Of a stretch of DNA of 64,000 bases, positions 30,393 to 46,406 are shown one piece after another. The notes beneath the pieces are model-generated. The model had not been told where the DNA came from, did not search any database, and saw only the letters and a program-made list of their open reading frames with translations. Each line of letters opens with the position of its first letter. Within the stretch, counting starts at the first letter, position 1. The stretch is from Deltaproteobacteria bacterium (GTDB taxonomy: Bacteria; Desulfobacterota; Desulfomonilia; Desulfomonilales; Desulfomonilaceae). The DNA lies in the NCBI GenBank assembly GCA_016875095.1, contig VGSG01000008.1, positions 1 to 64,000 on the forward strand. The letters run 5' to 3'. The translations under genes and the position numbers were made by a program.

Positions 30393-32516
30393 TTGGAGAG
30401 CTCTCAAATTGGGGTGTGGGACCTCAATCTTCAAACATGGGAGGCGTTCTATGATGTGACATCGGGTGGGATGTTCGGCTATGCGCCGGATGACTACATT
30501 TGGACGGTGTCCGGGTGGGGTAGCCTTGTCCATCCGGACGATCTTCGTCCGATTAGAAAAGCGTTCAACGCGCACGTCAGAGGAGAGACCCCCGGTTACG
30601 AGTGCGAGCACCGGATACGCGCAAAGTCCGACGAGTGGCGTTGGAACCTTGCCAGAGGCAGGGTGGTGGAATTCGACCGGAACGGCGCTCCGCTGAGGAT
30701 GGTGGGAACCAACCAGGATATTACCGAGCGGAAACTCCTTGAAGAAGATCTCAGAGCCTTGCGGGCCGATTTCGGAGATGACTCGGAGAGTCGCGTGACC
30801 GCGCCCGAGGAAGCCGGTCTTGATTACAAAGGCCTTATGGAAAAGGTCAAAGCGCTGAGCGGCCGGCTTCGCGCCTCCTTCGCAAGATATCAATTATTAA
30901 TTGATAACCTTCGTGAAGGCATTTGTGTCGCCGAAGGCGGGTTCCTCCGGTTCGTGAATCCTTATGGCGCTCATATTATGGGGTATTCTCTTGATGAACT
31001 CATGTCACGACCTTTCATGGAATTCGTGCATCCCGAAGACCGCGACTTCGTCATAAAACGATACCTACTTCGATTGCAAGGGCAGCTCGAAGGTGGGGAC
31101 ACGAGCTTTCGGATCATACATGCTTCAGGAGAGACGAGGTGGCTCGAAGGCGCAACGGTGCGCGTGGCGTGGGAAGGTAAACCCGCAGTCTTGATGGTTG
31201 CCTCGGATGTCACGGAGCGTCGAGAAGCCGAGGAAGAGCTTCAAAGGTCGGAGCAGCTCCTGCGGCTTACGTTCGACACCATGGGCAGTGGACTGCTGAT
31301 CATAGGCCCCCATGGTGAGATCCTGATGGCGAATCTGTATGCGCGGCATTGTCTTGGACTTGATGACACCAGTATCGGCCGAACGCTCTTGGAAGTCCTT
31401 CAAGACGTGGGCCACTGGGAGGGTCTCAATCACCACGAAACCAAAGCCTCCACCACGATAACCTTGCGGAACGGAAAACGAAAGACCATCGGTTACAACT
31501 GCGCGAGTCTTGAAGCCGAGGGGTCTTATATGCTGCTGTTCAGGGACTTGTCGGCCCTCGCAGAGAGTGAGGAGCGGCGGCGAAGGGCGGAGCAATTGGC
31601 TCTCGTGGGCGAAACCGCGGCGAGATTGGCTCACGATATCAAGAATCCTCTGACAAGCGTTCTTTCCGGGCTTCATGCGCTGAGAAGTTCGAAGAATCTG
31701 ATCTCTGAGGACCGTTACATTGTCGAGTTGGTCCTCGATGAGGTGCGGTCGCTGAATGCGACCGTGAAACATCTCTTGGAGGGGACTCGCACGTCGAGTA
31801 TGACCGTAGCTCGGGTTGATGTGCGCGCTCTCTTGGCGGGGCGCCTTGAATTTCATAAGCTGATGGCGCAAAGCGCCGGAGTTCATATATCTCTCGCGGA
31901 GGGTCCGGAGGGTGTTTTCGTAACGGGAGACGACCAATCCCTCCGCCGAGTCCTCGACAATCTTGTCCAGAATGCTCTTGACGCCTGTGGGAGGGGCGAT
32001 TCCATTCGATTGGGCTGGCGGATCGTGCCGCAGCCCGAAAAGCATTTACTGGCCGGTGATTTCTCCGAAACAGTGGTTGGGATCTCTGTAGAAGATACAG
32101 GCCGGGGCCTCTCCGACTCCATTAGCAAGTCCGGCTTGTTTAGACCCTTCGTGACGACCAAGTCTTCCGGCAGCGGCCTCGGGCTTGCGGTGTCCCAGGA
32201 AATCGCCGAAATACACGGGGGATGGATACGGGTGGGTTCATCGCGGGACAAGGGGACTACCTTTGAAATGCTGTTGCCCGCAGGCGATCGACCCCGATGC
32301 TGGGAGAGCAGATGCGCGACAAAAGATTGTGGGCCTCAATCCGAGAATGGATGTTTGCGTTGCGAAGTCAAGATGTCCGGGTCTGACACCTTCTGTTGGG
32401 TTTTGAGGGGTCTTACTCACAGGGCGGAGACGGGCGTCTGGCCGGATAGATGCCTCAACTGTTTCGTATTCCGGCAATCGGTTTTCCTGGCGCCTGACAA
32501 GCCGCCAGGTGTCTGA
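30393..32516 (+). CDS. Cytoplasmic multi-PAS histidine kinase with Cys-rich tail
   Basis: 707 residues, TTG start; the gene lies between the receiver gene and the NtrC-type gene. Three PAS domains: about 5-120 (ending VGTNQDITERK), about 165-285 (ending VASDVTERREA) and about 290-395. The HisKA domain has His414 (ARLAHDIKNPLTS); the ATPase has LVQNALDAC (N box), VEDTGRGL and SGSGLGLAVSQEIAEIHGG. No transmembrane helix is seen. The last 75 residues carry nine cysteines, including CWE, CLRC, FCW and CLNC, in a pattern resembling two-CW-type cysteine-rich domains, possibly a metal or FeS site for redox sensing. The likely partner is the NtrC-type protein 15 bases downstream. Confidence 0.9.
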   Translation: MESSQIGVWDLNLQTWEAFYDVTSGGMFGYAPDDYIWTVSGWGSLVHPDDLRPIRKAFNAHVRGETPGYECEHRIRAKSDEWRWNLARGRVVEFDRNGAPLRMVGTNQDITERKLLEEDLRALRADFGDDSESRVTAPEEAGLDYKGLMEKVKALSGRLRASFARYQLLIDNLREGICVAEGGFLRFVNPYGAHIMGYSLDELMSRPFMEFVHPEDRDFVIKRYLLRLQGQLEGGDTSFRIIHASGETRWLEGATVRVAWEGKPAVLMVASDVTERREAEEELQRSEQLLRLTFDTMGSGLLIIGPHGEILMANLYARHCLGLDDTSIGRTLLEVLQDVGHWEGLNHHETKASTTITLRNGKRKTIGYNCASLEAEGSYMLLFRDLSALAESEERRRRAEQLALVGETAARLAHDIKNPLTSVLSGLHALRSSKNLISEDRYIVELVLDEVRSLNATVKHLLEGTRTSSMTVARVDVRALLAGRLEFHKLMAQSAGVHISLAEGPEGVFVTGDDQSLRRVLDNLVQNALDACGRGDSIRLGWRIVPQPEKHLLAGDFSETVVGISVEDTGRGLSDSISKSGLFRPFVTTKSSGSGLGLAVSQEIAEIHGGWIRVGSSRDKGTTFEMLLPAGDRPRCWESRCATKDCGPQSENGCLRCEVKMSGSDTFCWVLRGLTHRAETGVWPDRCLNCFVFRQSVFLAPDKPPGV

Positions 32517-32531
32517 CCGGAACGCAGGGCA

Positions 32532-33932
32532 ATGTTTGAGAGAATTCTTATCGTTGATGACGATGTCCAACTAGCGAAGAGTCTTGAGTTCTTGCTGAAA
32601 CGCGAGGGATATCATGCGTTAAGCGCTCACCACGGCGCCGAAGCGCGTAGGCTTGTCTCAAGCGCCTATCCCGACGTGATCCTCCTGGACCTGGGGCTTC
32701 CCGATGTAGACGGCATCACCCTCATGGGCGAATTGCGTCAGATCCATCAGGATGCCTGCTTTCTTATCGTCACGGCGAACACGGCCATAAAGACCGCCGT
32801 GGCGGCCATGCGCAACGGAGCGACCGATTACCTGACAAAGCCGTTCGAAGCCGAGGAACTCACCTTGGCAATAAGTCGGGCGATCCGGGACCGAATCAAG
32901 GACGAGGAAATAATCCGACTGCGAAAAGAAGCCAGGCCGTTACCTCGGCCTTTAGCGAATGCTACGGCAGCTTCCGGTCCTCCGTCACCATATCCCTCCA
33001 AGTCAATGCGCGGAGTTCTTGCTCAGGCGAAACAGGCCGCGGACCGGAACACCATCGTCCTGCTCCTGGGCGAAAGCGGGGCCGGAAAGGATTACGTGGC
33101 CAAGTTTATTCACGAATGCTCGCCCCGGGCCGGCGGACCCTTCTTTTCCATCAACTGTGCGGCCGTTTCTTCCGAACTTGCCGAATCGGAACTGTTCGGA
33201 CACGAGCCCGGCGCCTTTACCGGAGCGAGAGGGCGGAAGCGAGGCCTGCTGGAACTTGCCGATCAAGGCACGTTGCTGTTGAACGAGGTGGGAGACCTAC
33301 CGCCGCCCTTGCAAGCAAAACTGCTGACGTTCCTTGACACCAAGGAATTCACCCGCGTCGGAGGGCAGATCCAAGTCCTCTGCAAGGCGCGTATCATCGC
33401 CGCCACAAACAGAAATTTAGAGCGAGAGGTAGCCGGGGGCAGATTCAGGGCCGATCTTTACTATCGACTCAACGTGTTTTCGGTCACCGTCCCGCCACTG
33501 CGGGAAAGGGTTTTGGATATACCTCTTCTGGTTCGCGATATCGTACAGCAATTGGTGGATGAAATGGGGTTCCCCGAAGCCCCGCAAATCGACGGAGAGG
33601 CCATGGATTTACTCTGCAACTACCATTGGCCGGGGAACGTGAGGGAGCTTCGGAATGTGCTGGAACGAGCCTTGATTCTCTGCAGCGGGCAGCGAATAAC
33701 GCCCTCCTGTTTGACAATAGGAAGCGGCCCTCGGGAGGGCCCGGAATGGTCATTCACTGTAGGTTTCCCCAGCGGCCAAACGATTCACGAGGTAATTTCA
33801 GAGGCCAAAGGCTCTCTGATTGCCGAGGCCCTGCGTCGTTCGCGGAACAGCAAACAAGGAGCGGCCAAGCTCCTTGGCATTTCTCGCCACGCTCTTGCCC
33901 ATCAGATGAAGTTTCTCGCCATTAACGAGTGA
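32532..33932 (+). CDS. NtrC-family sigma-54-dependent response regulator
   Basis: 466 residues. Receiver domain with Asp53 (DVILLDLGLPD) and Lys near 103 (YLTKPFEAEE). AAA+ activator domain at about 155-385: Walker A GESGAGKDY near 180, the sigma-54 loop GAFTGA near 226, and LLLNEVGDLPP for Walker B. A Fis-type HTH ends the protein (KQGAAKLLGISRHALAHQMK). It should oligomerise on DNA and open sigma-54 promoters when phosphorylated. Directly downstream lie a perfect palindrome and a sigma-54 promoter candidate, which makes the following operon its likely target. Confidence 0.95.
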   Translation: MFERILIVDDDVQLAKSLEFLLKREGYHALSAHHGAEARRLVSSAYPDVILLDLGLPDVDGITLMGELRQIHQDACFLIVTANTAIKTAVAAMRNGATDYLTKPFEAEELTLAISRAIRDRIKDEEIIRLRKEARPLPRPLANATAASGPPSPYPSKSMRGVLAQAKQAADRNTIVLLLGESGAGKDYVAKFIHECSPRAGGPFFSINCAAVSSELAESELFGHEPGAFTGARGRKRGLLELADQGTLLLNEVGDLPPPLQAKLLTFLDTKEFTRVGGQIQVLCKARIIAATNRNLEREVAGGRFRADLYYRLNVFSVTVPPLRERVLDIPLLVRDIVQQLVDEMGFPEAPQIDGEAMDLLCNYHWPGNVRELRNVLERALILCSGQRITPSCLTIGSGPREGPEWSFTVGFPSGQTIHEVISEAKGSLIAEALRRSRNSKQGAAKLLGISRHALAHQMKFLAINE

Positions 33933-34831: not shown

Positions 34832-35476
34832 ATGGAGCGCACCGAAAAAGAGATCACAAGGATCTTGTTCGTGGAGGACCACGCGTCGCTGGCTTATATC
34901 ATGTGCTCGAACCTGGAAATGATGATCCCAGGGATACAGGTATTGAGAGCCGACTCCTGTTGGATGGCTCGTGAAATCGCGCTGGAAACCGGTCCGGAAT
35001 TGATAATCACGGACGTAAGGTTGGCTGACGGTGACGGTTTAGAACTCCTGGAAGAATTGTCGGCAATGATTCCCGGTGTGCGGGCCATCGTAACGAGCGG
35101 CGCAGCCCCCAACAAGAACAAGCGCTCAACGGATTTTGCCTTCCTTCCCAAACCCTACGAACCGCAAGATCTGGTTGACCTGGTGAAAAGCAAACTCGGC
35201 TTGCGGCGAAACGACAAAACGGATGAAGGTCCAAGCGCCTCTTCACCGCCGCACAGCGAAACGCCTTTCAGATATGACCCCCATCATCTACGAAACCGAC
35301 TCGCCGCTCTCTTGGCCGGTCTTAGGGTCTTGCAAGTGGAGCTGACGGTCCAGGCGGACGACCCGCAAGCCGTCCTACGCATTGCGAATGAGCAGGCGCC
35401 AAGACTGATTGAAATCACAGGGGAAATCTCTCGAATGCTACGCGAGTCGGAACATCGCCGTCTGAGGTCGGAATGA
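34832..35476 (+). CDS. Response regulator with C-terminal HisKA-like helical domain
   Basis: 214 residues. Residues about 10-125 are a receiver: LFVEDHASLA, acceptor Asp in LIITDVRLADGDG, Ser in IVTSGAA and Lys in FLPKPYEPQDL. After a Ser/Pro linker, about 150-205 is a helical pair that reads like a HisKA dimerisation domain (HHLRNRLAALLAGLRVLQ), with His151 or His152 where a phospho-acceptor could sit, but no ATPase domain follows. It may act as a phosphotransfer or decoy protein. Its stop overlaps the next start (ATGA). Confidence 0.8.
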   Translation: MERTEKEITRILFVEDHASLAYIMCSNLEMMIPGIQVLRADSCWMAREIALETGPELIITDVRLADGDGLELLEELSAMIPGVRAIVTSGAAPNKNKRSTDFAFLPKPYEPQDLVDLVKSKLGLRRNDKTDEGPSASSPPHSETPFRYDPHHLRNRLAALLAGLRVLQVELTVQADDPQAVLRIANEQAPRLIEITGEISRMLRESEHRRLRSE

Positions 35477-36207
35477 GCGACTGCAAGGGAACGGTGCTGC
35501 TGGTTGATGACGACCCGGAGGTGACCTGGGGAGTCGGGCGTTACCTCACTCGCGTGGGGTTTGCCGTGCACACCTGCGGGGATGGGGCCGAAGCGATTTC
35601 ATTATTGGAAGCCGGAGCATTCGATTTCGTCGTTACCGACATCAAAATGCCCCGCATGAATGGCCTGGCTCTTGTGGATTGGATGCGCGAGCACCGGCCG
35701 AGCGCAAAGGTTGCGGTAATGACCGCCTTTGGGGGACCGTCGATCCGAGCGATGAGCATAAGCAAGGGAGCGATGCTCTACTTGGAAAAACCGGTGGACC
35801 CGGAGTTCCTTGCCGATGTGTTGACTTCCACCTCGGAAGAGAAAGCCTTCTCAGGTCGAATCGACCAAATCGACATTCTTGATTACGTGCAACTCATCAT
35901 GCTCACCGGCAAGAAACTCGTTGTGGAAGTGCATTCCGGACAGGGAACTCACGGCGAGCTGTTCGTTGACAACGGCGCCATCATCCATGCGATGTGCGGC
36001 GAACTCGAAGGTGAAGAAGCAGTCTACCGGTGCCTAAGCTTCGAAGGGGGCAGCTTCCTGAACACACCGTGGAGGGAACCGCAGAAGGTTTCGGTATACA
36101 GACCGGGCGATTTTCTGCTGATAGAAGCTGCCAGAAAACGGGACGAGAGGAGATGCGGACCGTCAGGAACGATTGAAGATCGTCTCAACGTGAAGGACGA
36201 CGGGTGA
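35473..36207 (+). CDS. Response regulator with PATAN/DUF4388 output domain
   Basis: 244 residues. Receiver at about 5-122 with LLVDDDPEV, acceptor Asp in FVVTDIKMPRMNG, Thr in AVMTAFG and Lys in YLEKPVDPEF. The output part (about 130-215) is DUF4388/PATAN: LDYVQLIMLTGKKLVVEV, GELFVDNGAIIHAMCG and EEAVYRCLSFEGGSF. PATAN domains occur with roadblock/GTPase signalling proteins and are thought to mediate protein contacts. It overlaps the preceding gene by four bases and likely carries the phospho-signal to the GTPase module. Confidence 0.87.
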   Translation: MSDCKGTVLLVDDDPEVTWGVGRYLTRVGFAVHTCGDGAEAISLLEAGAFDFVVTDIKMPRMNGLALVDWMREHRPSAKVAVMTAFGGPSIRAMSISKGAMLYLEKPVDPEFLADVLTSTSEEKAFSGRIDQIDILDYVQLIMLTGKKLVVEVHSGQGTHGELFVDNGAIIHAMCGELEGEEAVYRCLSFEGGSFLNTPWREPQKVSVYRPGDFLLIEAARKRDERRCGPSGTIEDRLNVKDDG

Positions 36208-36250: not shown

Positions 36251-36727
36251 ATGAATGAAGATGCGGCCCAAAACCCCGGCCCCGTAACTCATATTCTTTC
36301 CTCGTTGATCGAAAGATCGGGAGCATTAACCGCATTGTTGGTGAGTAAGGAAGGAATGGTTATCACCGAAGCGGGAGACACGTCATACCTGAACACCACC
36401 GCCATGGCCGCGCTTGTGGCGGGCATGTTTTCCGCAACGCGTGAAGTGGCCCGCATCGTGGGTGAGAAACATTTTTCCATACTGCTTCAGCAGGGCGAGA
36501 GTCGCCATATTCACATCAGTCTCATACACGATTCAAAGATGATGGTTCTCATCTTCGAGGATCATCAGCGCATCGGTTTGGTTCGTTACGAGGCCCGACG
36601 GGCCGGAGAAGAGCTGAACAGCATACTGATGCCCACACTCAAGCCATCGGAAGCCGAACAAATCAGCACACCTCAATTCAAAGAATATGCCTTGAATTTG
36701 ATCGACCGCATTTTTCAGGCCAAGTGA
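36251..36727 (+). CDS. Roadblock/LC7 domain protein (MglB-like)
   Basis: 158 residues. A roadblock fold covers about 10-125: ALTALLVSKEGMVITEAGD, MAALVAGMFSATREVA, and the hydrophobic strand KMMVLIFEDHQRIGLVRY. MglB-type roadblock dimers are GTPase-activating partners of MglA. The gene ends three bases into the GTG-ATG region of the MglA gene, so the pair is probably made together, as in Myxococcus mglBA. A Ser/Glu-rich C-terminal extension of about 30 residues is present. Confidence 0.88.
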   Translation: MNEDAAQNPGPVTHILSSLIERSGALTALLVSKEGMVITEAGDTSYLNTTAMAALVAGMFSATREVARIVGEKHFSILLQQGESRHIHISLIHDSKMMVLIFEDHQRIGLVRYEARRAGEELNSILMPTLKPSEAEQISTPQFKEYALNLIDRIFQAK

Positions 36728-36738
36728 AGGACGGGACG

Positions 36739-37320
36739 ATGCCGCACATCAATTATGAATCCAAAGAGCTGGCTTTCAAAATGGTCTACTACGGGCCGGG
36801 CTTGAGCGGCAAGACAACCAACCTGGTCTATATCCATAAGGCTCTGGAAGCCGGACGAAGGGGCGATATCATTACTTTGGACACGGAAGAGGAGAGGACT
36901 TTGTTCTTTGATTTCTTTCCGCTCGATCTGGGTCGGATCGGCGGCTACAACATCCGGCTGCACATGTACACCGTGCCGGGCCAGGTCTACTACGAGGCGA
37001 GTCGCCGGCTCATCCTTGACGGCGCGGACGGCATTGTCTTTGTCGCGGATTCCCAACAGGACAGACTCAACGAGAATGTCAACAGCTTTCGCATGTTGCA
37101 AGAGAACCTTGGCGATTACGGGGTCAACTGGAAAGAGTTTCCGCTCGTCCTTCAGTACAACAAGCGTGATCTGGCCGACATCCTGCCTCTGGGGACTCTG
37201 GAAGGTCAGCTCGGTTTGAACGGCATTCCGGTGTTGGAGGCCGTGGCCATCGCGGGGACGGGTGTGATGGAAACGATCCGTGTCGCCAGCCGCGAGGTCA
37301 TCGAACGGTTCCAGATGTGA
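36739..37320 (+). CDS. MglA-type small Ras-like GTPase
   Basis: 193 residues from ATG 36739; a GTG at 36724 overlaps the upstream stop and would add five residues. P-loop GPGLSGKTT (about 14-22 of the domain), switch region with EERTLFFDFFPLD, MglA-specific TVPGQVYYEASR, and base-binding NKRD. This is the bacterial MglA family (polarity switch for motility in Myxococcus), not Era or Obg. The presumed GAP is the roadblock protein just upstream; effectors may be the PATAN proteins. Expected location is cytoplasmic, possibly polar. Confidence 0.92.
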   Translation: MPHINYESKELAFKMVYYGPGLSGKTTNLVYIHKALEAGRRGDIITLDTEEERTLFFDFFPLDLGRIGGYNIRLHMYTVPGQVYYEASRRLILDGADGIVFVADSQQDRLNENVNSFRMLQENLGDYGVNWKEFPLVLQYNKRDLADILPLGTLEGQLGLNGIPVLEAVAIAGTGVMETIRVASREVIERFQM

Positions 37321-37345: not shown

Positions 37346-38041
37346 ATGGCGCTCAAAGGAACGTTGGCGGATCTTGGGATTGTGGATCTTATCCAGTTTC
37401 CCCACGCGGGCCGCAAGACCGGACATCTGATGATTACGGGACCGGACGGGGACGCAAGGCTGTTCTACGAGAACGGCGCCCTGGTGCACGCAAGTCTGAA
37501 TGATATTCACGGCATGGACGCCCTTGTGCGAATCGTGGACTGGGGCGAGGGCTCCTTCGAGTTCATGCCCGATCTTCAATCTCAAGAACGCACGATTGAA
37601 ATCGACCTCCATCGCGCGGTCATGCAAGCGCTCAAGCTTCACGACGAACTGAAAATGGAAGAAGAAAAGAGGAAATCCGGAAAAACGGCAGGTGAAAGCA
37701 TGCAGGACGAAAGCCTTCGCGCCAAGCTTGAGGAATTCGTTGCCGCAAACGATTTTGCGATGCACGCGGGAGTTCTTTCTCCTGAAGGAACGGTCAAAGC
37801 TTCCGCGGACGGGCCCGATGGATCTCCGGACAAGATCGATCGGCTCAGAGAAGCGCTTCATGCGTTCGTGCAGGCCTATCCGCGCGGCGGCTTGAGTCGC
37901 ATCCTCCTGCAGGACGAACTGGGTGTTGTGGCGCTCGTGATGCTGCCGGACGGCGGATCTTTGATCGTGGTTGCCGCCAAGGAAGCGTCACTGGGAACTG
38001 TTTCCGTGGGCGTAGGCAGATTAGCCCTGGGAATCGAATGA
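37346..38041 (+). CDS. PATAN/DUF4388 - roadblock fusion protein
   Basis: 231 residues from ATG 37346 (GGTGGAG eight bases upstream). About 1-100 is a DUF4388 domain: GTLADLGIVDLIQFPHAGRK, ARLFYENGALVHA and ALVRIVDWGEGSFEF. A charged helix follows (DELKMEEEKRKSG). About 125-231 resembles a roadblock domain (FAMHAGVLSPEGTVKA; GVVALVMLPDGGSLIVVAAK). It joins in one chain the two interaction modules found in the neighbouring genes and may bridge the receiver-PATAN protein and MglA. Its stop overlaps the start of the DnaA-like gene (ATGA). Confidence 0.85.
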   Translation: MALKGTLADLGIVDLIQFPHAGRKTGHLMITGPDGDARLFYENGALVHASLNDIHGMDALVRIVDWGEGSFEFMPDLQSQERTIEIDLHRAVMQALKLHDELKMEEEKRKSGKTAGESMQDESLRAKLEEFVAANDFAMHAGVLSPEGTVKASADGPDGSPDKIDRLREALHAFVQAYPRGGLSRILLQDELGVVALVMLPDGGSLIVVAAKEASLGTVSVGVGRLALGIE

Positions 38042-39207
38042 TGTGGCCGGCAATGGCAGACGAACCCAAAACAAAGGGTGGCCGCGGACTCCCGGACTTT
38101 CTGCGGGTCAGTGTGCTCAGAGGAGTTCTCGACGAGCGTACGGCAGAGCGCGTGGAGCTTTACCGCCGAACCAGAGGGCTCGGATTCTTCGAATCCCAGT
38201 CCGCGTTTCTCAACGACCCGCCCGATCCGGACCTTACGTTTGATAACTTCGTCGTGTGCAAAGGCAATTCTTTTGCACTTGAACTGGCCCATACCGTGGT
38301 TACGAAATCTTCGTCCCGATCACCCTACAACCCCCTCTACATTTACGGAGACATCGGGCTGGGGAAAACCCATTTGCTTTCCGCCATCGCAAATGCGGCG
38401 GAGGACAAGAGAGTCTTGTTGCTCAATGTTTCCGACTTTGAGACGGAAGTGGAAAGGGCCAATAGACTGTGCAAAAGGGCGGAGCTAAGGGACTGGCTTT
38501 ATTCCGCGGAAATCCTTCTCTTGGACGATATTCAACTCTGCGAAAGCCGCGAGGATGTGCAGCGAGATCTCTTCGCAGTTCTCAACTACATGATGCGCAC
38601 GCGGCGGTGGGTGGTGATCACCTCCGATGTTCCCCCCACACGCCTGGCAGGTGTGGAGTCACGGCTTCTGTCACGGCTCGGTGCCGGAGTCATCGTAAGT
38701 CTGCATATGGGAGACCGGATCGAGCGGCGCGCTTTTGTCGAGTCATTCCTCGATGAGCGTCCCATGCCCGAAGAAGTCATTGATTATCTGGCCGAGAACG
38801 TCAGCGAAAATGTGCGCCGCCTCAAAGCTGCGGTGACACAGTTGCTCATACTCAATGAGGCGAACGCGGGGCCCTTGACCCTCGACGCGGCCAGGGAATT
38901 CCTGGCGCCCCAGGACGCGCCGGGCCGTGCAGGCGGCATTCCCGTCCCAGATCCCGGGGCGCCGACGTCCGGGTATCATCAAGAGCCGAAACTTCCGCAG
39001 ACGGTAGTAAGTCGTTTCAAGGAGATGCTCGATGAAGCGGAGAGCGAAGATGAGCAGGCGCTCGCTCTACAGATCGCCTTGGGAGAAAGAATACGCCAAC
39101 TCCGAAAGGAGGAAGGAACCGAAGAGGCCGTTGAGAAACTGGAACAGGCGCTGAACCTACTCAGGCAAGGCAGACGAGAGGAGGCAATACGATGCATAAG
39201 TACCTGA
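38038..39207 (+). CDS. DnaA-like AAA+ ATPase without DnaA DNA-binding domain
   Basis: 389 residues. After about 60 divergent residues (GLPDFLRVSVLRGVLDE), TFDNFVVCKGNSFA opens a DnaA-type AAA+ core: YNPLYIYGDIGLGKTHLL (Walker A 104-111), LLLDDIQ (Walker B 160-166), TSDVPP (sensor I, 195-200), arginine-finger candidate Arg213 and ENVRRLKAAVTQLL (sensor II, 257-270). The domain IV helix-turn-helix that binds DnaA boxes is absent; instead a charged coiled coil ends the protein (about 325-385). It overlaps the PATAN-roadblock gene, so its partners are probably signalling proteins rather than oriC. A role like Hda, acting on replication, cannot be excluded. Confidence 0.88.
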   Translation: MMWPAMADEPKTKGGRGLPDFLRVSVLRGVLDERTAERVELYRRTRGLGFFESQSAFLNDPPDPDLTFDNFVVCKGNSFALELAHTVVTKSSSRSPYNPLYIYGDIGLGKTHLLSAIANAAEDKRVLLLNVSDFETEVERANRLCKRAELRDWLYSAEILLLDDIQLCESREDVQRDLFAVLNYMMRTRRWVVITSDVPPTRLAGVESRLLSRLGAGVIVSLHMGDRIERRAFVESFLDERPMPEEVIDYLAENVSENVRRLKAAVTQLLILNEANAGPLTLDAAREFLAPQDAPGRAGGIPVPDPGAPTSGYHQEPKLPQTVVSRFKEMLDEAESEDEQALALQIALGERIRQLRKEEGTEEAVEKLEQALNLLRQGRREEAIRCIST

Positions 39208-39452: not shown

Positions 39453-39917
39453 ATGGCAACAGACAGAATCGACACAAGAGCGGTGCAGGGGGTCCTCTAC
39501 GGGATCTACAAAGCGCTCCACGGCGTTGTAGGGGAAAACTCGGCGGCGGTAATGCGCAGAGCCGCGCCGGATATCCTCGACATGCTGGGCAAGCTGGGAG
39601 TGGATTTCTCCTGTGTGGACGACGTGAACAAGCTGTCCGCGAAGCTCGGAGAAACCATGGTGCAAGCCGGCATGTGCGAGAACATGGCCTTCACGCTCAA
39701 TGGAAGCGACCTGACTGCGGACATCACCCAGTGCTCCTTCTATCCGCTCACCATGAAGCTGAAAGAGGAGGGGATACCGCCTTTCGGGTGCCCGTTCGCC
39801 GCCTTGACCATTGCAATTGCGGAGAAAAACCTGGGGAAACGGGCTCGACTGAAGTTTTTGGAGCCGGTCGGCAAGCCTGGTGACACCCGACTGATCGTTG
39901 AACTTACGGATAAATAG
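39453..39917 (+). CDS. Four-cysteine protein associated with roadblock signalling
   Basis: 154 residues from ATG 39453, with AAGGAG seven bases upstream. Mixed alpha/beta, no signal peptide. Four single cysteines are spread through the protein: DFSCVDD (54), AGMCENM (75), TQCSFYP (93) and GCPFAALT (112). The layout (N-terminal helix, then strands with a Cys-Pro motif) loosely recalls the MetOD1 or V4R-type ligand-binding domains, but this is a weak match. It stands 42 bases upstream of a roadblock gene and may be the sensor or effector of that protein. Redox or metal binding is a guess. Confidence 0.6.
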   Translation: MATDRIDTRAVQGVLYGIYKALHGVVGENSAAVMRRAAPDILDMLGKLGVDFSCVDDVNKLSAKLGETMVQAGMCENMAFTLNGSDLTADITQCSFYPLTMKLKEEGIPPFGCPFAALTIAIAEKNLGKRARLKFLEPVGKPGDTRLIVELTDK

Positions 39918-39959: not shown

Positions 39960-40316
39960 ATGCCGAGCGTAAAGCAGAAGCTGAGCGAGTTGCTCAAGGT
40001 AGACGGGGTCAACACTGCGGTCGTGGTGGGTCGTGACGGCTTCGTCATCGACGGCTTGACCAACGGCGCCGCAATGGATGTGGAAGCCATCGGCGCCGTA
40101 ATATCAACCGGCGTGGGCACCGCCGAGGTAATGGGTCGAGAACTCAAGGTCGGCGCCATGAGCCAGGGGATGATGGAATACAAGGACGGCATCATCCTCA
40201 TGAGCTTCCTTGGGAGAGAAGCCATACTGGCCTGCGTGGCAGAGGCCAACGCGAACCTGGGCAACGTGCGTTACCAGATAAAGAAGTTCTCCCCCGAGAT
40301 CCAAGCTACAATCTAG
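39960..40316 (+). CDS. Roadblock/LC7 domain protein (single domain)
   Basis: 118 residues, AAGGAGG seven bases before the ATG. The roadblock fold fills the whole protein: LKVDGVNTAVVVGRDGFVID, IGAVISTGVGTAEVMG, and YKDGIILMSFLGREAILACV. It is closer in size to archaeal-type and MglB core domains than the longer roadblock protein of the MglA pair. It could dimerise or pair with the PATAN-roadblock protein. Followed by a UUCG hairpin that probably ends the transcript. Confidence 0.9.
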   Translation: MPSVKQKLSELLKVDGVNTAVVVGRDGFVIDGLTNGAAMDVEAIGAVISTGVGTAEVMGRELKVGAMSQGMMEYKDGIILMSFLGREAILACVAEANANLGNVRYQIKKFSPEIQATI

Positions 40317-40480: not shown

Positions 40481-41260
40481 GTGGTGGCTCTCAAGCTGTT
40501 AGAACTGGCGGAGTCGGGTGAGGTTGATGGACTTCTCAAGCTGATCCACGGCGGCTTGAGTCCGGACCTGCGGGACGGATACGGACGAACCGCCCTCATG
40601 TTGGCGGCGAGAGAGGGACACGAGCATGTGGTGAGAGCGCTTCTTCAGGCAGGCGCTCATGTGGGCGCCGCGGACGAAGAGGGTGACACCGTCCTCATGA
40701 GGGCGGCCATGGAGGGCAGGAAAGCTGTGGTTAGGCTTCTCCTGAGGGCTCGCCCCGACACGGAGGCTCGAGATAGATACGGCTTCACCGCGTTGATTCG
40801 AGCTTCCATGAATGGACATACGGAAGTTATGGAACTGCTCCTGGCATCAGGAGCGGCAGTTGATGCGAGTGACCGCAACGGGAGAACTCCCCTGATCTGG
40901 GCCGCGCTCCGGGATCATCTGGGCGCCGTTCAACTGCTCGTCGAGAAAGGGGCTTTCGTGGACGCGAGGGGCGAAAGAAACAGCACCGCGCTCATGGAGG
41001 CGGCGTTCAGAGGACACGCGGAGGTGGTAGATCTATTGCTCGCTCGCGGGGCGGACATCGACGCGGTCGACACAGGCGGTTTCACTGCTCTTGCCTTGGC
41101 CTTGAGAAGACGCCACCCGGCTACGGCAAAACTGTTGCTTGCACATGGGGCGGAGACAAATACCGTGGATCACTTCGGTCGTACGCCTTTGATGTGGGCT
41201 CGCTCAGCCGGCATGAACGAGGTTGTTGACACGCTGCTGGCCGCGGCGCCGACACGGTAG
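40481..41260 (+). CDS. Ankyrin-repeat protein
   Basis: 259 residues; starts at GTG 40481 or at the next GTG, 40484, which is better spaced from AAGGA. About seven 33-residue ankyrin repeats fill the protein, each with the G-TAL-A-G or G-TPL-A pattern (GRTALMLAAREGHEHVVRALL; RTPLIWAALRDHLGAVQLL; STALMEAAFRGHAEVVDLL). No signal peptide, so a cytoplasmic binding scaffold is likely. It closes the signalling block, but a hairpin and operator-like repeat separate it from the roadblock gene, so it may be regulated separately. Confidence 0.9.
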   Translation: MVALKLLELAESGEVDGLLKLIHGGLSPDLRDGYGRTALMLAAREGHEHVVRALLQAGAHVGAADEEGDTVLMRAAMEGRKAVVRLLLRARPDTEARDRYGFTALIRASMNGHTEVMELLLASGAAVDASDRNGRTPLIWAALRDHLGAVQLLVEKGAFVDARGERNSTALMEAAFRGHAEVVDLLLARGADIDAVDTGGFTALALALRRRHPATAKLLLAHGAETNTVDHFGRTPLMWARSAGMNEVVDTLLAAAPTR

Positions 41261-43115: not shown

Positions 43116-46100
43116 CTAAGCCAGTGTTCCAACTTCGGGCAACGTATCCTGTTCCTTGATGTAACGGTACAGGGATTGGCGTGATATTCCAAGCAGTTCA
43201 GCCGCTACCGTCCTGTTGCCCGCGGACCGGCGTAGGGCCTCGACACACAGACTGCGCGTCACTTGGTCAATGATATCCGGCATGTTGTTCGCCTCGGGAA
43301 ATAAGACTTCGTGTGACCACTCGCGCGGCCCGGTGGCTAGCGACGGGATTTCTATTTCCAGTTTGGCTCCTCTCGAGAGCATCACCGCTCGCTCGAGAAC
43401 GTTGCGCAATTCTCGGACATTTCCCGGCCAACCGTACGAAGCAAGCTTCTCCATGTCTTGCGACCCTATAGCGGGCACCTGAGTCAGGCGCATATCGGTT
43501 GCAAGGTCGAGGAGGATCTCCTCCACAATGACGGGGAGGTCTTCGAGCCGCTCTCGGAGCGCAGGAACTCGCACAGTGTAAACATTGAGTCTGTAATAGA
43601 GCGCCTCGAGAAATCGGCCCTGCTCCACTTCGGCGCGCAGGTCCCTATGTGTTGCGGCAATGAGGCGCGCATGTACTCGGATATCCTTTTCACCCCCCAC
43701 CCTGGTAAAGGAGCGCGTGTCCAAGAAGGTGAGAAGCTTGGACTGAAGGTTGAGAGGAAGCTCGCCGACCTCGTTGAGCAACAGAGTGCCTCCCTCGGCC
43801 AGCTCCAAGAGACCTCGTTTCTTGGCGATGGCGCCGGTGAACGCCCCTCGTTCGTGGCCGAACAACTCAGATTCGGCCAGCTCCCGAGGAATGGCCGCGC
43901 AGTTTACGGAGAAAAACGGGCCGTCCGCACGCTTGGATTTGCTGTGAATCCACCTTGCCATATAGTCTTTACCGGTTCCGCTTTCACCGAGGAGCAGAAC
44001 GATGCCGTCCGTTTCCGCCGCCTGCCGTCCCCGCTCCAGGGTCGCTATCATGCTCGGGGACAAATATTCCCGCTGTGTAAATGTCCGCACCGGCTGGACG
44101 CCCTTGCGACCGGTAATGTTTCGAGAGAACTTGCACACGCCGACTACCGCTCCCGCGCTGTCTCTCAGCGGAGTCCGAATATCGTGAAAAGTCAGGTTCA
44201 TGCCACGCACCGGCCTGGTGTGTTCATCTTCGACGGTTTCGCCTGCCAAAACTCTCAGGTCTCCTTCGAGTATGTGGCTTGCCGCTTCCGGGCCGAAAAA
44301 ATCCTCCGACCGTTTTCCGATAATCTCGGGCGCGGGCAGTCCGAACAACGTTTCTACCGCAGGGTTTACGTGGGTGTATCGCAAATCGAGATCTTTGAGG
44401 AAGATACAGTCTCGCGCAACCTCGAAGATCGTGCGGAAGCGTTCTTCACTTGTTCGCAAAGCCTCTTCGGCCTCCCTCCGTTCGGTGATGTCGCGGCCCA
44501 GAGAGAGCACGGCTCGCTCGCCCTTGAATGTTGTCGGGAGCGCGACGGATTCCAGGTAGCCTACCGAGCCGTCCGCGCGTAATAACTGCACTTCCGTAAA
44601 ATCCGATACGACTCCGCTGCGCTCCGCTTCCTGGATTCTCTTTGAAACAACTTCACGAAATTCAGGATGGATGAAGTCCAGAAGAGGCAGGCCCATCAGT
44701 TTGTCGGTATTCTCAACCCGAAAAAATCTTGCCGCTGCCGCGTTACCGAAAAGGATGCCGCCGCGGTGCACAATCATTGGGTCGGGTGAGATATCAAACA
44801 GCTCACGATAACGGCGCTCACTCTCGAGCAGGGCTTCCTGGGCCCGTTTCCTCTCTGTCACGTCCTGAACAATGCCCTCGGTTGAGACCAGGTCCCCATG
44901 TTCGTTCAGGATGGGACGCGCGTGGAGAGAAGCCCATATGGGTCTGCCGTCCTTACGTCGTAATTCCACTTCAAAGCCATGAAGCACCTGGCCTTTACGG
45001 ATGAGACGAATGAATTCCTCGCGCTGACCTGAGTGCAGGTAGATGCCGTCACCCATCTCCTTCCCGGCTCGAAGAAGTTCCTCCGGCGAGTCAAAACCAA
45101 GAATGTGGGCTGAGGCCGGATTGGCATGCACCAGGTGGCCGCGCGCATCGGTTTGAAAAATGCCGTCGACGGCATGCTCAAATATGCCTCTATACTTCTC
45201 TTCGCTCAGCCTGAGCGTTTCTTCCGCGCGCTTGCGAACGGTTATATCCCGGACGATCCCGATTGTGTACCAGATCCCTTTCATGTTGACGACGGACGCG
45301 GACAATTCTATGGGGAAGCGACTCCCGTCGCTTCTGGAAGCTATGAACTCGGCCGTGTTTCCGTCACGTTCCTCTTCGACGCCGCGCATGTAAGAAGAGT
45401 TGCGCTGAGGTTGTTCAGCTTGAGCCGTTTCGTAGGAATTGGAGAGCTCAAGCCCTTTCAACTGGAGGAAATCGGCTGGTTGCTGGCCGAGCAGGACACG
45501 GACATTGTGTCCAACCGGATCGTAATCCAGCTCCAGGATCTTCACTAAAGCCGTATTGGATCTGCGCGTAATGCCATATGAATCGATTACCAACAAACCA
45601 TCCGCAAGGTTATCGCTGATTGCGGAAACATAGGTCAACGTTTCCTGGAGTTCCTGGGTAGCTTCAGAAACCTCTCGCTCCAGCGTTTCCATACGGCTCT
45701 CAATTTCGGACGCCATGTTGGTCATGGTCCTCGCCAGGACGCCAACCTCATCCCGTGACCGTATGTCCACCACCGCGCTAAATTCTCTGTTGGCAACCTT
45801 GTTCGCGTAATGGGTGAGCTCTATGAGGGGGCGGGACATCTTGTTCGTGAGCACATAAGCGATGCCTACGCTTAGCAGGAAGATCATGAACGTGACCGCG
45901 TGAAGCTTTACGATCGTCCACCACATGTAAGACATCACGCCGTCCAGATCCATGCCCACGTGAACATGCCCGGCCACCCCCGAGAGTATGGGCGATGAAA
46001 TGTCGAGATAGTTTCCTTCGCCTTTGAGGCGAACATTAGTGACGATAACCTCGTCCGTGTTTTCCCTGGGCTGCTCAACCACCTTGCGCAATTCGTACGG

Positions 46101-46406
46101 CACGCTGGGCGCAAACGTGTGGGAGAGAAATTCGCCGTCTTTGTTGACCACCAGGACATAGGAAAGCCCCTTAGTCTCCCTTAGTTGATCGACGATGGAC
46201 TGAATTGTGGACGCATCCCTGTTGAGGATTATTTCCATGCTGGAGTGGGCGATGTTATTGGCTATGGCGATCGCTTTACTCTTGTACTCGTCTATGATTC
46301 TGTCATAGAGTATCCAGCCAGCGACTGCGGATATGATTGTTGCAACCACCCCGAACAAGAGGGTCATCATGATCAAAGTTTTCTTAAATAATTTTGACAT
46401 CGTCAC
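43116..46406 (-). CDS. Membrane-anchored multi-PAS sigma-54 activator
   Basis: 1096 residues. Transmembrane helices at about 10-33 and 168-190 bracket a periplasmic sensor of about 130 residues; a HAMP domain follows ([19 protein letters not shown]). Four PAS domains fill about 265-770 (ends [46 protein letters not shown]). The AAA+ activator has Walker [10 protein letters not shown] near 805 and GAFTGA near 854, then a Fis-type HTH ([20 protein letters not shown]) at the end. No kinase or receiver domain: signal and transcription output are in one chain. Coupled (ATGA overlap) to the binding-protein gene upstream. Confidence 0.93.

Follow-up and report, generated by a model that had tools for sequence, protein, structure and literature searches.

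The stretch of DNA analysed here (the window; 64,000 nucleotides of contig VGSG01000008.1 from a Deltaproteobacteria bacterium) encodes, at positions 38038 to 39207 of the forward strand, a 389-residue protein, P0001. This AAA+ protein is real and conserved, descends from DnaA and has been taken into an operon with an MglA-type GTPase. It is matched by the Pfam Bac_DnaA and NCBIfam TIGR00362 models, has copies at two further loci, and probably serves cell signalling as a reused piece of the replication machinery, not as a replication factor.

The gene and its operon

The reading frame of P0001 is open throughout from an ATG start, and this start overlaps the stop of the upstream PATAN gene, which ends at 38041, as ATGA, an arrangement that suggests translational coupling of the two genes. 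The operon lies on the forward strand and runs from a PAS histidine kinase (30393 to 32516) through an NtrC-type sigma-54 response regulator (32532 to 33932), a response regulator (34832 to 35476) and a response regulator with a PATAN (DUF4388) domain (35473 to 36207) to an MglB-like roadblock protein (36251 to 36727; Robl_LC7 E-value 1.8e-8, MglB model 61 bits against a cut-off of 200). Directly adjoining the latter is a small GTPase with the MglA-like motifs GPGLSGKT, TVPGQ and NKRD (36742 to 37320), followed by a PATAN (DUF4388) protein (37346 to 38041), P0001 itself, a conserved 154-residue protein (39453 to 39917), a second roadblock protein (39960 to 40316) and an ankyrin-repeat protein (40481 to 41260), whose counterpart also adjoins one of the further copies (G012, C428). 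The sequence-only reading had placed the gene in a GTPase operon with roadblock signalling, and this context holds: the run of roadblock, GTPase and PATAN genes is present in the window, and the gene order is kept at the two further loci.

MglA genes near PATAN genes have already been described (PMC4316618), and such MglA/MglB and PATAN-linked modules share with our operon an MglA-like GTPase, roadblock and PATAN proteins and response regulators. The modules of that report differ from ours, however, in having no DnaA-type AAA+ protein, and DnaA is not mentioned in its text; nor did we find, in the open-access literature, a DnaA-like protein named in such an operon.

Several neighbours deserve comment in their own right. 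The 154-residue protein, with 80-81% identity over the three loci, is the most conserved operon product compared; it has four invariant cysteines (Cys54, 75, 94 and 113) and no Pfam or NCBIfam match, and its assignment as a V4R protein was not supported. In the PATAN protein at 37346-38041, the C-terminal half (about 110 residues) is conserved and looks roadblock-like by eye; its identification as a roadblock domain was not supported at the profile depth used, where the probability reached 4%. One PATAN protein in another family carries a sub-threshold roadblock match. A pattern search for sigma-54 promoter sites that could serve the NtrC-type regulator gave a count equal to chance, with none near the operon, and defence-system models gave no match. 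Further along the window, on the reverse strand (43116-46406), an ORF of 1096 residues appears, by eye from its translation, to encode a multi-PAS sensor with a sigma-54 activator domain.

Distribution of the gene and its neighbours

A single other genome of the same GTDB family contains two further copies of P0001, with 62% and 52% identity, each on its own contig (L068:4653-5882 and L069:1942-3099). Both keep the gene order from the kinase through the 154-residue protein; the second roadblock and ankyrin genes are kept at one of the loci, while the ORFs listed for L069 include an antisense ORF in their place. Identities at the two loci are 62/52% for P0001, 63/53% for the PATAN protein and 64/55% for the response regulator, a similar pace of divergence. 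We found no other copy among 42 genomes of the class, nor, at E <= 1e-55, among 395 genomes of the phylum, and a scan of genome contigs with the P0001 sequence as sole query returned DnaA genes only. Of the short phylum matches of non-DnaA length, those inspected proved to be normal dnaA genes wherever dnaN or gyrB adjoined. Among plasmids, the matches were partial and dnaA-like only, and those listed stayed below 34% identity. With only three copies in two genomes known, lineage-specific drift is possible. Separately, a contig of a viral collection (L213:4992-5429) encodes a distant, truncated DnaA-like protein of 145 residues without domain IV.

In genome G001 (L221:1-1599) an operon-type GTPase (73% identity), a roadblock and a PATAN gene lie at a contig end; this stretch lacks the upstream two-component genes, which suggests a shorter form of the operon. 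Two genomes of another family encode distant relatives of the 154-residue protein, which adjoin roadblock and PATAN genes (L211:7808-8281 and L212:7933-8421), and one contig of that family has its relative within a GTPase-roadblock-roadblock-PATAN cassette. No DnaA-like gene is present in the stretches inspected around these relatives, so the AAA+ protein seems to have been added to a module that already existed. Within the family of our genome, two contigs (L222 and L223) carry further MglA-like operons with PATAN, roadblock, GTPase and a Ser/Thr-kinase-like gene, and two others (L224 and L225) carry MglA-like GTPase genes in the vicinity of a gene whose start looks FHA-like. The remaining MglA-like GTPases with inspected surroundings lie in other contexts.

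The ATPase core compared with DnaA and Hda

The DnaA-type AAA+ core spans residues 63-290 (38224 to 38907) and is supported by Pfam, NCBIfam, an AF2 model and Foldseek, and the DnaA sequence blocks by which the protein had been recognised from sequence are all present in its translation. Residues were compared in an alignment of the three copies with 42 DnaA sequences, using E. coli DnaA numbering. By this alignment the ATP-binding, hydrolysis and arginine-finger residues are intact in all three copies: the Walker A motif GDIGLGKT (38347 to 38370) with K110 (E. coli K178), the LLLDD-type Walker B motif at L160-D164 (38515 to 38529) with D163 and D164 (D235 and D236), sensor 1 D197 (D269), box VII R209 (R281), the arginine finger R213 (R285; 38674 to 38676) and the sensor 2 arginine R260 (R334; 38815 to 38817). 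A DnaA-type lid bearing this last arginine and an initiator-specific region of DnaA length are also present.

Other positions have changed in every copy. In DnaA, V211 and R245 serve single-stranded DNA binding, and R227 (AID-1) and L290 (AID-2) form part of the DnaA-DnaA interface (PMC5742627). The H-motif V211 position is occupied by E, E and D in the three copies (E139 in P0001; 38452 to 38454) and by I or V in 38 of the 42 DnaA, and the B-motif R245 position by D, D and E (D173; 38554 to 38556) as against R or K in 37 of 42, so that acids stand at both single-strand contacts. At the R227 position we find Y, L and I, and at the L290 position V in all three; because of these two changes P0001 may assemble differently from DnaA or less strongly.

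The genome encodes a true DnaA elsewhere (C20), adjoining dnaN, gyrB and parAB-type genes, and has separate genes for Hda (C79; 242 residues, with an N-terminal clamp-type motif QLVLPL) and for IstB (C29). P0001 is therefore an extra DnaA-like protein and not a misread dnaA, and unlike dnaA its gene is not beside dnaN.

Among DnaA paralogues that lack domain IV, Hda is the best known, and it still serves replication, stimulating the hydrolysis of DnaA-bound ATP together with the clamp. P0001 resembles it as a DnaA-like AAA+ protein lacking domain IV, and differs in being longer, with an N-terminus of 62 residues and a tail bundle of 68. On this precedent, P0001 could be a replication regulator under the control of the GTPase module, capping or hydrolysing ATP-DnaA as Hda does or poisoning DnaA filaments; its derivation from DnaA and the kept arginine finger, box VII and sensor 2 residues would suit such a function. 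We nevertheless regard it as unlikely. On inspection of the translation, the N-terminus of P0001 lacks the Hda clamp-binding motif QL[SP]LPL, the counterpart of which is present in the genome's own Hda, and the AID-1 and AID-2 contacts are altered. The operon carries no replication gene, in the window or at the two further loci, and most close relatives lack a P0001 gene yet retain DnaA and, as a rule, a separate Hda-like gene. The earlier suggestions that the protein competes with DnaA, or links polarity to replication, are both unsupported, given the changed V211, R245, R227 and L290 positions, the undetected domain I and the separate DnaA and Hda.

The two ends of the protein

In DnaA, domain I makes the contacts with DnaB and DiaA, and domain IV is a helix-turn-helix with the DnaA-box signature GGxDHxT. 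P0001 differs from DnaA in having neither domain. Its N-terminal extension (residues 1-62; 38038 to 38223) carries the pattern LPDFL...GxLDExxAxRxELYRRxR in all three copies, and AF2 predicts two short helices there with low confidence. Domain I was not detected, the TIGR00362 match beginning only at profile position 101, and residues 6-66 have no Pfam family at E-values up to 10. The full N-terminal extension that had been read from the sequence as a distinction from Hda is thus present, but it is only 62 residues long and does not match domain I. Comparison of the extension with the MshEN/PilB N-domain gave a probability of only 10%, although its score of 19.0 exceeded the highest value from shuffling, 15.5; this is a faint lead at most, too slight to weigh as evidence for a pilus role.

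In the place of domain IV, residues 322-389 (39001 to 39204) are predicted by AF2 to form a helical bundle. Modelled alone, in single-sequence mode, the last 68 or so residues came out as four helices of 11, 21, 15 and 9 residues packed into a compact bundle (mean pLDDT 86), with no helix-turn-helix and no PDB structure match with E < 1. The charged coiled coil proposed from sequence does not fit this prediction, which is compact rather than extended, and charge is not a conserved trait of the tail, since its net value varies among the copies (-5.4, +1.7 and -1.6). The proposed loss of the DNA-binding domain, on the other hand, agrees with our results: the tail profile matched DnaA domain IV with a probability of 3.9%, as against 99.9% for E. 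coli domain IV used as a control, and the GGxDHxT signature is absent from P0001. The tail as a degenerate domain IV was also considered; its raw score of 17.6 exceeds the maximum of 16.0 from 60 column shuffles, but comes from a meaningless 13-column alignment. By alignment and profile comparison, all known DNA contacts of DnaA have been lost from P0001.

These results bear on a second alternative, namely that P0001 still works on nucleic acid, but in a new way, for instance as a transcription regulator binding DNA through its tail or N-terminus. The NtrC-type regulator at the start of the operon, the slightly basic tail of one copy and the conservation of GERIRQ in the tails lend themselves to such an action, which we consider improbable: the tails of the other two copies are acidic, the bundle resembles no known structure at the threshold above, and no DNA-binding family was found in either end of the protein.

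Placement among initiators and helicase loaders

P0001 falls on the DnaA/Hda side of these AAA+ proteins and by score is closest to DnaA, as judged from profiles and the tree of core sequences. Pfam Bac_DnaA (PF00308) matches residues 65-220 with an E-value of 1.9e-36, and NCBIfam TIGR00362 (DnaA) matches residues 59-290 with 193.3 bits, short of the 343.9 bits required of a DnaA equivalog. The corresponding Hda model, TIGR03420, reaches 89.8 bits (equivalog cut-off 194.8), and the IstB and DnaI models 45 and 44 bits, both under their equivalog cut-offs. Against core profiles of equal depth, P0001 scored about 165-175 bits with DnaA, 61-84 with Hda and 37 with IstB/DnaC. A sequence search of solved structures placed DnaA first and the loaders far behind. 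The AF2 model of the core (pLDDT about 72-90) found DnaA domain III (8bv3_A) as its top Foldseek match, with a TM-score of 0.87 by target length, and Hda next; this fold match gives only mild independent support, since the input alignment of the model consisted of DnaA rows.

A phylogeny of 68 AAA+ cores from DnaA, Hda, DnaC, IstB and P0001-type proteins, as had been suggested for checking the assignment, grouped the three P0001-type copies together (100/100), at the end of a long stem with 1.22 changes per column, and a branch with 98/98 support separated IstB/DnaC from P0001. The tree did not fix the place of P0001 inside the DnaA/Hda side, and AU tests rejected none of four alternative groupings, so that "nearest to DnaA" is a statement based on scores and anatomy.

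A further alternative is that P0001 loads a helicase or assists transposition, as DnaC, DnaI and IstB proteins do, acting on DNA or DnaB. It shares with them the common initiator/loader AAA+ clade, has weak IstB_IS21 and DnaI matches, and is not excluded by the AU test from a grouping with IstB/DnaC (p 0.45). Such a function is very improbable in our view, since the loaders lack the DnaA-type lid with its sensor 2 arginine that is present here, score much more weakly (profiles favour DnaA by about 130 bits), fall in a supported group of their own that excludes P0001, and come behind DnaA and Hda among structural matches. We accordingly discarded P0001 as an IstB/DnaC member, although a deep sister relation to that group is compatible with the AU test, and its earlier description as a DnaA paralogue is upheld by profiles, predicted fold and anatomy. 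Of the two results that had been named beforehand as contradicting this description, a position inside the loaders and a DNA-binding domain in the tail, neither was obtained.

Selective constraint

Compared with the 62% copy, P0001 differs at 28.5/19.8/61.4% of codon positions 1/2/3, and a second comparison of copies gave 37.6/27.6/65.0%. By this codon-position pattern the gene is under clear purifying selection, and the ORF at 38038-39207 is real. A lineage-specific duplicate of little function carried along in the operon, to which its presence in two genomes only might point, has a very slim chance in the face of this constraint, the retention of every ATPase residue in all three copies and the long stem branch of the group.

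A possible role in GTPase signalling

The sequence-only reading had offered complete repurposing as one of several fates, and this one fits best: the DNA contacts are lost, the GTPase operon is conserved, and a true DnaA and Hda are encoded elsewhere. We think it rather likely that a duplicated DnaA AAA+ domain is reused here as an ATP-dependent assembly switch in an MglA-type GTPase signalling module. Since the machinery for binding ATP, sensing a neighbour's ATP and hydrolysing it is kept and the parts that hold DNA are lost, ATP-dependent assembly off DNA is to be expected. P0001 would bind ATP and assemble head to tail like DnaA domain III, on a protein partner rather than on DNA, and its own N- and C-terminal modules may supply the contacts. 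The PATAN, roadblock or GTPase protein is the likely partner, because these are its fixed neighbours. Control over the time and place of assembly would lie with the two-component proteins and with the MglA-like protein through its GTP state, and ATP turnover would reset it.

A more specific version is tentative: the initiator AAA+ protein would be a DNA-free effector or scaffold of the Ras-like GTPase, and the module would control DnaA-type filaments on a protein partner, for example at a cell pole. For the signalling module as such, type IV pili are a plausible target, through control of their polar organisation. In cyanobacteria, the function of these pili is influenced by PATAN regulators (PMC7690835), and polar pilus formation in Myxococcus is controlled by MglA (PMC11580455); the present genome also encodes two MshEN-bearing ATPases of PilB/GspE type. 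Because such PATAN and MglA proteins act on pilus control elsewhere, an output of the operon in type IV pili or polarity is plausible by analogy.

P0001 has lost both known DNA-binding surfaces of DnaA, has kept the machinery of ATP-driven assembly, and is fixed beside a Ras-like GTPase. If the proposed role is confirmed, the protein would show a route by which an initiator ATPase can become a signalling part, and would serve as a natural separation-of-function variant for examining the requirements of DnaA-type assembly other than DNA.
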